From a virus: DNA of 39,299 bases. Of this stretch, positions 7,850-13,454 are shown one piece after another (positions within the stretch are counted from its first letter, which is position 1; each line of letters starts with the position of its first letter). Location: IMG/VR virus record IMGVR_UViG_3300021471_000003, positions 1 through 39,299 of that record; one strand, 5' to 3'. A program made the translations under genes and the position numbers. The notes under the pieces were generated by a model, which had not been told where the DNA came from, did not search any database, and saw only the letters and a list, made by a program, of their open reading frames with translations.

Positions 7850-8554
7850 TCATCTTTTTTTATTCTTTAGTAACCATTCAATAAAATTGGTTAATGTATA
7901 TTTATCTTGCGTACTCTCTGAAAACTCTTTGATTAATTCCGTACATTTCTTCGAGTCTTTAATTGTCATATTCTTAATGAAGATATTTTTTAACTCCGCA
8001 TAAGAATTATTTTGGTTACCAAACTTTGCAGAAAAATTATTTTGGTCACCAAACTTCGCAGAATAATTATTTTGGTTATCAAACTCCGCAAAAGAATTAT
8101 CTTGGTTATCAAACTCCGCAAAAGAATTATTTTGATAATCAAACTTTGCAGAAGAATTATATTGGTTACCGAACTTCGCAGAATAATTATTTTGGTCACC
8201 AAACTCTGCAGAAGAATTATCTTGATAACCAAACTTTGCCGACTGAAGAAGTCCTGAAGCAAACAGCCTGAATATTTCTGCTTCATGCTCTTTACAAAAT
8301 TCTTTCAATCTTTTCAAATACGAATTTATGATTTTGCCCGTTGGCGTCAAAAAACACTTTTTTTTATATATTTTGATTTGTTCTTCGGAATGTTTATCAA
8401 CTTCTATTCTATACCCTTCTTTTTTTGTGTTATCAAAAACCACATTTATTTTCAAATAGTTGTCTACATTAGCCACTATATGACTATGAAATGAATTTTT
8501 AGGATTCATCAATATTTCTTTATCGTTTATTAATATAGCTACTCCTTTACACAT
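7850..8554 (-). CDS. Protein with eight 10-residue tandem repeats
   Basis: 234 residues from ATG at 8554, chosen after GAGGTGGT. The N-terminal 100 residues (MCKGVAILINDKEI, then SHIVANVDNYLKINVVFDN, VDKHSEEQIKIYKKK) look like the head of a phage family starting M-C-x-G. A helix (LKRLKEFCKEHEAEIFRLF) leads into decapeptide repeats of the type NNSFAEFDNQ and NNYSAKFGDQ (about residues 107-190), then a helical C-terminus. Regular Ala/Phe every ten residues suggests a solenoid or fibrous stack. Similar decapeptide repeats occur in phage proteins of unknown role. The DNA repeats (8011-8250) could allow copy-number change. Confidence 0.75.
   Translation of the reverse strand: MCKGVAILINDKEILMNPKNSFHSHIVANVDNYLKINVVFDNTKKEGYRIEVDKHSEEQIKIYKKKCFLTPTGKIINSYLKRLKEFCKEHEAEIFRLFASGLLQSAKFGYQDNSSAEFGDQNNYSAKFGNQYNSSAKFDYQNNSFAEFDNQDNSFAEFDNQNNYSAKFGDQNNFSAKFGNQNNSYAELKNIFIKNMTIKDSKKCTELIKEFSESTQDKYTLTNFIEWLLKNKKR
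8011..8250. repeat. 30-bp tandem repeat inside a gene, eight units
   Basis: Eight in-frame 30-base units starting at 8011 (TTTGGTTACCAAACTTTGCA and variants). Each unit has a small palindrome of the type TTTGGTNACCAAA or TTTGATNATCAAA. The units encode the decapeptide repeats of the gene at 7850-8554. Confidence 0.85.
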
Positions 8555-8565
8555 TTGTACCACCT

Positions 8566-11095: not shown

Positions 11096-11227
11096 TTAAT
11101 ATTCATTTCTTAAGCTGAATCTTGGTCCTATCCATATTATGACTTCACCCTGAAACTTAGGGCTTCTGTCGATATTGATAAGTCTATTATACATTATTGA
11201 ATACTCATGAAGTTCTTTAAGATTCAT
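11096..11227 (-). CDS. Very small hypothetical protein, first leftward gene (43 aa)
   Basis: ATG at 11227 follows AGAGGTGGT. The product is MNLKELHEYSIMYNRLINID and then RSPKFQGEVIIWIGPRFSLR and NEY, with one helix and two strands. It lies only 24 bases downstream of the terminator-like element at 11251-11294, so its expression depends on read-through or on control of that element. Confidence 0.55.
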   Translation of the reverse strand: MNLKELHEYSIMYNRLINIDRSPKFQGEVIIWIGPRFSLRNEY

Positions 11228-11250: not shown

Positions 11251-11294
11251 AAAAAGAAAAAAGAAAAAAAAAGCAGATAGGTTTATCTATCTGC
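11251..11294 (-). terminator. Intrinsic-type terminator or attenuator
   Basis: On the minus strand a perfect 8-bp hairpin (GCAGATAG/CTATCTGC, arms 11287-11294 and 11273-11280, six-base loop) is followed by 22 bases of almost pure T (11272-11251). It ends the structured RNA candidate and sits just before the first leftward gene. T-rich tracts alone terminate archaeal RNA polymerase, so it should act in that direction. Confidence 0.8.
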
Positions 11295-11661
11295 ATGTTC
11301 CGTTTAATGTTGTGCATAGCTTTCACTGTACCCAGCTTATACTATGCGTTAAGAAGTCATCACTTCACACAACCCAAATAAATCTTAAATTATGCCCTTA
11401 ATTTAAGAAAGCTTTTCATTGGCTTTTGGTAGGTTTCGGATTAAGGACACTGTAGCGGGTGCCCCGTACTTATATCCCATCGCAAGCCTCAAGCTTTTGA
11501 GTTGTGCGGGTTCTGGTTTTTTCTACCTTTTTGTGTCGTTGGGCTTTCCCACTCCCAACACCAGCAATTACAAAGGACACTTCTTGTTGTGGTGCCCTTT
11601 CGGGTCTTGTCGTCGCTTTTCGTCATTTACAACCCGTCTGGGTTTGTACATCATACCAAAT
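11251..11661 (-). ncRNA. Candidate structured noncoding RNA or long attenuator leader
   Basis: About 410 bases with a strong promoter at the 5' side, a terminator at the 3' side and no convincing ORF. It is visibly richer in G and C than its flanks. Helices seen on the minus strand: a closing helix pairing 11654-11660 (TTTGGTA) with 11425-11431 (TACCAAA) right at the expected transcript start; an 8-bp hairpin 11628-11648; CCC-GAAA-GGG with a GNRA loop at 11595-11604; stacked helices GTTGGG/CCCAAC (11554-11559 with 11538-11543) and GTGTC/GACAC (11576-11580 with 11533-11537); CTCAA/TTGAG at 11488-11501 enclosed by CCCGCA with TGC-GAT-GGG; CGGG-GCA-CCCG at 11456-11466; and a distal helix GCATAG/CTATGC (11314-11347). 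No match to RNase P, SRP, tRNA or intron cores recognised. Confidence 0.6.
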
Positions 11662-11671
11662 AGTAAGACAA

Positions 11672-11692
11672 ACTTATATATAAACTTTACGG
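11672..11692 (-). promoter_or_regulatory. Strong archaeal promoter for the structured RNA
   Basis: On the minus strand CCGTAAAG (BRE-like) precedes TTTATATATAAG, a near-ideal archaeal TATA box centred near 11680. The start is predicted near 11655-11661, which is where the closing helix of the RNA begins. Confidence 0.7.
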
Positions 11693-11730
11693 TTCACGAA
11701 TAAGTGGTAACATTCACTATGAAGTAGTAA
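11693..11730. promoter_or_regulatory. Pair of operator-like palindromes at the RNA promoter
   Basis: TTCACGAATAAGTGGTAA (11693-11710) and TTCACTATGAAGTAGTAA (11713-11730) are two copies of the array unit spaced 20 bases apart, directly upstream of the minus-strand promoter. Confidence 0.6.
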
Positions 11731-11770
11731 CAGAAAAATATAAATATAACCATAAAAACAGTAAAGTATA

Positions 11771-12624: not shown

Positions 12625-12651
12625 TATCATTCCATATCTGATATAACATGA

Positions 12652-12760
12652 TAACCCATAACATACCATGCTATACAATACCATAGCATACAATACCATA
12701 CAAAGCTATACCATACAAGACCAGACCAAGCCATACCATACTAGACCATACCATACCACT
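12652..12760. repeat. Degenerate CCATAC/ACAATACCATA tandem repeat
   Basis: About 110 bases composed almost only of short units such as CCATAC, ACCATA and CTATAC, strongly strand-asymmetric (few G on the plus strand). Apparent reading frames here are translations of the repeat. Candidate origin or packaging-related element. Confidence 0.75.
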
Positions 12761-12767
12761 AATATTT

Positions 12768-12822
12768 AGCCCAATATTTAGCCTCATATTTAGCCTCATA
12801 TTTAGCCTCATATTTAGTCGTG
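12768..12822. repeat. 12-bp tandem repeat ATATTTAGCCTC
   Basis: Four to five head-to-tail copies (ATATTTAGCCCA, then ATATTTAGCCTC three times, then ATATTTAGTCGT). Uniform 12-bp period places each copy nearly on the same face of the helix. Candidate iterons. Confidence 0.8.
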
Positions 12823-12834
12823 ATTTATAAAATG

Positions 12835-12861: not shown

Positions 12862-12974
12862 TATATACTGGAGTATAGAAAAATTTATATAATCTATATA
12901 CTGGAGAATACAAATATTTATATATGATGACTTTCCAAAATTAAGGGAGATACTTTCTATTATATAAATATTTG
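12862..12974. repeat. TATATACTGGAG direct repeat and 14-bp inverted repeat
   Basis: TATATACTGGAGTATAGAAA (12862 on) and TATATACTGGAGAATACAAA (12895 on) are head-to-tail copies with a 33-bp period. The end of the second copy, CAAATATTTATATA (12911-12924), is an exact inverted match to TATATAAATATTTG (12961-12974). The segment between is gene-free. Confidence 0.65.
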
Positions 12975-13071
12975 TGTGCTAGAGTATATAGATTTCCACA
13001 GGAAATGAAGGTTCTGAGCAAATATATATTATTTATATATAAGTTGGTCTTTCTAAATAGTAACATAATGT

Positions 13072-13261
13072 TATCACTAAAAGGTAGTAAATCTTATTTG
13101 TCACTGATGAGTAGTAAATCTTTGTTATCACTTGATAGTGGTAAGTATCACTTGTCACTGGTGAATAGTGACAGTATTAGAGTTGTCACTAACAAGTAGT
13201 AAAAATATGTCACCACCAACAAGTAGTAACAGAATGTTGTCACTAGGGGGTGGAGGTAAAA
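13072..13261. repeat. Array of about seven operator or iteron units
   Basis: Units such as GTCACTGATGAGTAGTAA (from 13100), ATCACTTGATAGTGGTAA (from 13128), GTCACTGGTGAATAGTGAC (13154), GTCACTAACAAGTAGTAA (13185) lie in the same orientation every 25-30 bases; the last two units are longer and more degenerate. The regular spacing near the AT-rich tract suits replication iterons; the occurrence of the same unit at promoters elsewhere suits operators. Confidence 0.8.
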
Positions 13262-13436: not shown

Positions 13437-13454
13437 AACAGTAAAATTTATAAA
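13437..13454 (+). promoter_or_regulatory. Late promoter, leaderless terminase transcript
   Basis: AACAGTAAAA (BRE-like) and TTTATAAA (13447-13454) lie 26 bases before the ATG at 13477, the usual archaeal TATA-to-start distance. No Shine-Dalgarno site precedes that ATG, so the transcript is probably leaderless. Confidence 0.65.

Follow-up and report, generated by a model that had tools for sequence, protein, structure and literature searches.

A candidate structured RNA at the head of the leftward operon in a tailed virus, probably of DPANN archaea

Genes, promoter and terminator at the locus

The window analysed here is an IMG/VR virus record of 39.3 kb, taken over its full length. On the plus strand, it carries terminase, portal, SU10-like capsid protein and tail protein genes from 13.9 kb on. 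A leftward operon occupies the minus strand from 11.2 kb downward, and the RNA element described here lies at its head (Table 1). No tRNA or tmRNA genes were found in the window. The minus-strand gene at 7850-8563 encodes a protein with imperfect repeats of the SAKFGDQNNFSAKFGNQNNS type, pentapeptide-like by eye, which gave no PHROG match.

Among 84,980 prokaryote species genomes, a search for relatives of the terminase picked up just two DPANN bins, with the labels Woesearchaeota and Parvarchaeota, at 32-33% identity. A search of 371 DPANN genomes gave one good and one weak further match. Because the terminase relatives come from DPANN bins only, assignment to a DPANN host is likely but indirect, and we regard the virus as probably a tailed virus of these archaea. 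Viral loci with related terminases (L059, L060 and L066-L079) form a tailed-virus group whose only genome relatives found are likewise DPANN archaeal bins. A gene start consisting of (G/C)TTTATATA, 22 nt and ATG, with no leader, recurs in this group.

The original prediction placed a strong promoter ahead of the element. A promoter is present, but it is of the archaeal BRE/TATA type and not bacterial: a sigma-70 scan of the window returned sites at chance number and none at the RNA start. When the window was taken together with 17 related loci, the distance from (G/C)TTTATATA to an ATG was exactly 22 nt in 7 of 29 cases, compared with ~0.6 expected per offset. This suggests that transcripts start at that base and that many genes are leaderless, and the same spacing places the predicted start of the RNA at 11654. 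The unit thus has the features of archaeal transcription, with BRE and TATA box at a 22-nt spacing (~25 bp before the start is expected) and a T9-C-T6-C-T5 end. TATA box, start, body, hairpin and T9 stand in exact order.

Table 1. Coordinates of the element and of the gene that follows it
Feature	Position	Strand	Details
Archaeal left promoter	11677-11690	-	BRE-like GTAAAG (11690-11685) and TATA box TTTATATA (11684-11677)
Predicted transcription start	11654	-	22 nt after the TATA box; first bases AUGAUG
GC-rich structured body, 360 nt	11295-11654	-	Fold z (see text), GC 43%, without coding signal
28-codon leaderless frame MMYKPRRVVNDEKRRQDPKGHHNKKCPL	11568-11654	-	May or may not be translated
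Outer closing helix UGAUGU (11653-11648)/ACAUUA (11310-11305)	11305-11653	-	Mean p 0.70
Hairpin AAGGGCAC/GUGUCCUU	11573-11599	-	p 0.94; first copy of the repeated motif GGGCACC-N9-AGTGTCCTT
Central domain, 12-pair closing helix CGCACAACUCAA/UUGGGUUGUGUG	11366-11508	-	Closing p 0.62-0.75 at 37-75 °C
Second motif copy GGGCACC-N6-AGTGTCCTT	11445-11464	-	Competes with GGGAUAU/GUGUCCU, p ~0.5
3' hairpins GAAGU/ACUUC and GCAUAGU/GCUAUGC	11314-11366	-	p 0.93 and 0.99
Terminator	11251-11294	-	8-pair hairpin (11294-11273, p 1.0), then T9-C-T6-C-T5
First gene of the leftward operon, 43 aa	11096-11227	-	Shine-Dalgarno-like GGTGGT upstream; codon z 2.5-2.8

The predicted terminator was confirmed as a hairpin followed by T9 (11294-11264); in a list of 28 terminator-like sites in the 39 kb, none of the others has a T run of this kind. 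Its distance of 24 bases from the first leftward gene also proved correct, as the T tract extends to 11251 and the gene opens with the ATG at 11227. Archaeal RNA polymerase can terminate at poly-U without a hairpin (PMC7289017). Given the archaeal promoter, the hairpin is therefore less meaningful than it would otherwise be, and termination is plausible with or without it. A TATA-like site with at most one mismatch is missing between 11654 and the first leftward gene; expression of the operon is therefore likely to need read-through from that start.

The region between the divergent units has several further features. A 31-bp sequence (84%) is common to the left promoter (11654-11684, minus strand) and the right promoter (13032-13062, plus strand) in inverted orientation (TTTATATATAAGTTNGTCTT...), and from this the left and right units probably share control or a regulator. 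Two GTRGTAACA motifs adjoin the left promoter upstream (11703-11735), and motifs like them occur near both promoters. Just after the right promoter, about seven imperfect ~27-nt repeats with TAGTAA and TTGTCACT cores occupy 13058-13260 on the plus strand; together with the GTRGTAACA motifs they are possible iterons or operators. In L060, the divergent region has four copies of a 37-nt repeat, GTAGTAACA. Non-coding tandem repeats (CATACCATAC... and CTCATATTTAGC, the latter with a 12-nt period) lie at 12642-12830. At 12891-12994, AT-rich DNA next to the GC-skew turn contains an inverted repeat (arms of 34 nt, 88%), a candidate replication origin. On the plus strand at 13447, TTTATAAA is followed by ATG exactly 22 nt on; the 162-aa gene that starts there, before the terminase, looks leaderless, as in L060.

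Folding of the body

In AT-rich genomes, a GC island marks structured RNAs (PMC8632094, PMC3432209). The GC content of the body was 43.1% (11654-11295), compared with 21.9% before it (11800-11655) and 20% after it (11272-11228). On the minus strand, the whole element folded with an MFE of -119.2 kcal/mol and a z of -4.68 (0 of 100 shuffles), and the body without the terminator (11655-11295) with a z of -4.21 (0 of 300 shuffles). The corresponding plus-strand values were -1.87 and -1.48, the latter with 22 of 300 shuffles. The predicted GC-richer foldable body was thus borne out, with z of -4.2 to -4.7 on the minus strand and of -1.5 to -1.9 for its complement. Such a difference between the strands points to an RNA rather than to hairpins in the DNA. 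Lower z than that of the element was reached by AT-rich inverted repeats near 12.45 and 12.85 kb, on both strands.

The predicted fold consists of an outer helix, a central domain and several hairpins. A 7-bp closing helix had been expected at the transcript start. A helix is there, but it has six pairs, and its p of ~0.7 at 37 °C falls below 0.5 at 60 °C. Within the central domain, the hairpin UCUUAAAUUA/UAAUUUAAGA reached a p of 0.96. GGGCACC and GTGTCCTT each occur twice in the window, both times inside the body. The GNRA tetraloop of the original prediction (CCC-GAAA-GGG) was outcompeted, its GGG being used by the helix AAGGGCAC/GUGUCCUU. A GUGAUGA motif noticed by eye raised the possibility of a C/D-box guide RNA; this candidate was rejected, as the motif lies within a hairpin and a D box was not seen.

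Searches for relatives

With Rfam 15 at the curated gathering score, no match was found in the window to riboswitches, ribozymes, GOLLD, ROOL or other families, in agreement with the claim that the RNA belongs to no known class. Permissive settings gave only scattered chance-level matches (E up to 5) far below the cut-off. DNA homologues of the element were found neither in phage records, plasmid records or the loci around a neighbour gene nor in 17 viral contigs whose terminase is related (31-65% identity, apart from L002, which is near-identical but truncated). The 371 DPANN genomes yielded isolated 20-40-nt matches, and those inspected had no second feature of the RNA. A covariance model (R1) gave no match, a result of little weight alone as the model rests on one sequence. 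When 2.9 million viral contigs were searched for the repeated-hairpin pattern, all 28 matches were unrelated; the 16-nt core pattern gave five unrelated matches in GC-rich contigs. The promoter pattern retrieved L002 alone; this near-identical fragment breaks off before it reaches the RNA.

We also looked at the corresponding place in related viruses. In L059, L069 and L079, the first leftward gene begins ~0-40 nt after the predicted start of the left promoter, with a short leader or none; in L059 it is leaderless at the position corresponding to the RNA. None of these three has a structured RNA there, and L060 has repeats at this place. Low-z segments of L070 and L079 were considered as counterparts and rejected, the former sitting among short ORFs and the latter being GT-repeat sequence. 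These comparisons suggest that the RNA is either an addition in this lineage or is changing too fast to be seen.

Coding potential, read-through and interpretation

The predicted transcript opens exactly with AUG AUG, like the leaderless genes of the virus group. The claim that the element has no ORF therefore stands only in part: codon usage, a weak test for short genes, gave no coding signal in any of the six frames of the body, but the AUG AUG start opens a frame of 28 codons. The codon usage of this frame scored a z of -1.0, compared with 2.3±1.0 for equally long pieces of virus genes; for the 83 codons of frame 0, which is interrupted by only two stops, the value was 0.45 vs 4.1±1.2. The weakness of the test on short genes is seen in the neighbouring 69-aa zinc-ribbon gene, which scored only 0.26. 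Neither protein relatives nor protein family matches were found.

The element could accordingly be a leaderless mini-gene of 28 codons or the remains of a decayed gene, its folding being a by-product of GC-richer sequence. The distance between TATA box and ATG is exactly the leaderless spacing seen in L059, L060, L066 and L068, the leaderless first leftward gene of L059 occupies the same place, and the 28-codon peptide is rich in charged residues. Nothing speaks more strongly against a purely non-coding reading than the leaderless AUG, although a chance ATG at this position is not rare. We nevertheless consider a mini-gene unlikely, since both frames score below the virus genes in codon usage, no protein relative turned up, and ~270 nt of folded GC-rich sequence would be left unexplained.

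Another explanation is a leader acting purely in cis, in which passage of the polymerase through the T tract into the operon would be set, by attenuation or antitermination, either by the body or by ribosomes that translate the 28-codon frame across the 5' helices. The element lies directly ahead of an operon with no other good promoter, its terminator close to the first gene. Moreover, the 28-codon frame ends just past the AAGGGCAC/GUGUCCUU helix, so that its translation would open the 5' part of the RNA. However, by duplex energy neither terminator arm has a partner in the upstream RNA that is better than in shuffled RNA, which speaks against a classical attenuator. In addition, the hairpin is dispensable for archaeal termination (PMC7289017), and the relatives express their leftward operon without such a leader. 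An exclusively cis-acting leader is therefore rather unlikely in our judgement.

That the element is no RNA gene at all, but a DNA element such as a piece of a replication origin or GC-rich sequence that folds well by chance, appears quite unlikely. In favour of this reading are its distance of only 0.8-1.8 kb to the GC-skew turn and to the repeats and inverted repeats of the 12.4-13.3 kb region, the z below -5 of other segments in that region, and the fact that a single sequence is all there is to judge by. Against it, hairpins in DNA fold to a similar degree on the two strands; this holds for the inverted repeat at 12.9 kb but not for the element, whose boundaries are precisely the promoter and the T tract.

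The reading we favour, to which we give about an even chance, is a lineage-specific orphan structured RNA of ~390-405 nt, transcribed from the left promoter, while read-through supplies the leftward operon. It is supported by the strand-biased fold, the GC island, the exact order from TATA box to T9, the missing coding signal and protein relative, the missing TATA-like site downstream and the unique repeated hairpin motif. It is weakened by the lack of a homologue, and hence of covariation, by the relatives L059, L069 and L079, which do without the element, by the AUG at the transcript start and by the existence of more extreme folds elsewhere in the window. The prediction of a previously unrecognised structured RNA or leader thus survives in its promoter-body-terminator unit, its better-than-chance fold and its lack of a known class. 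It does not survive in its GNRA loop or in any antiterminator pairing, and the leaderless AUG leaves a small protein open. On this sequence-based footing, we regard the structured RNA as a candidate.

For such an orphan RNA, we propose that the left promoter would recruit TBP, TFB and RNA polymerase of the host for minus-strand initiation at 11654. Folding of the GC-rich body would give the central domain together with a set of stable hairpins, and the U-rich tract at 11272-11251 would be the end point of most transcripts. The leftward operon lacks a convincing promoter of its own and would be expressed by those polymerases that pass this tract. Once released, the RNA probably works alone, for example through a viral or host protein bound via the repeated GGGCAC/GUGUCC hairpin. 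Its size, multi-domain folding and repeated hairpin are our grounds for guessing at a role in trans. The broader proposal, that it represents a new class of large structured non-coding RNA of a DPANN tailed virus, acting in trans during infection via a repeated protein-binding hairpin, is possible but improbable.

GOLLD and ROOL are large structured phage RNAs of unknown function that do not code for protein (PMC12286853). The element resembles them as a large structured RNA of a tailed virus without protein code. It differs in size, as its ~390-405 nt from promoter to T tract fall short of the ~600-900 nt expected for these classes (659 nt in a ROOL example and >800 nt in many GOLLD RNAs), and in context: they are bacterial and often near tRNA genes, whereas the element has an archaeal promoter, no tRNA genes in its window and no Rfam match. 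By the features tested (size, tRNA neighbours and Rfam), it is not a member of either class. The nearest archaeal-virus precedent that we found is Tant, a non-coding antisense RNA in the early control region of Halobacterium virus PhiH (PMC4284463). The parallel lies in its place, the early control region of a tailed virus of archaea, and does not extend to sequence or orientation: Tant runs against the early gene T1 and pairs with it, while the RNA here runs along with the operon behind it. Bacterial-style attenuators and antitermination leaders share the layout of promoter, structured leader and terminator before an operon, with a short starting frame; the element differs from them in its archaeal promoter and poly-U termination and in that antiterminator pairing was not found.

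No structured RNA of DPANN-archaeal viruses was found in the open-access literature searched. To our knowledge, structured RNAs of archaeal viruses in general are hardly known. If real, the element would be a large viral non-coding RNA from outside the bacteria with a testable role, in a genome of only ~40 kb. It may then be among the first such RNAs described from the DPANN tailed-virus group.
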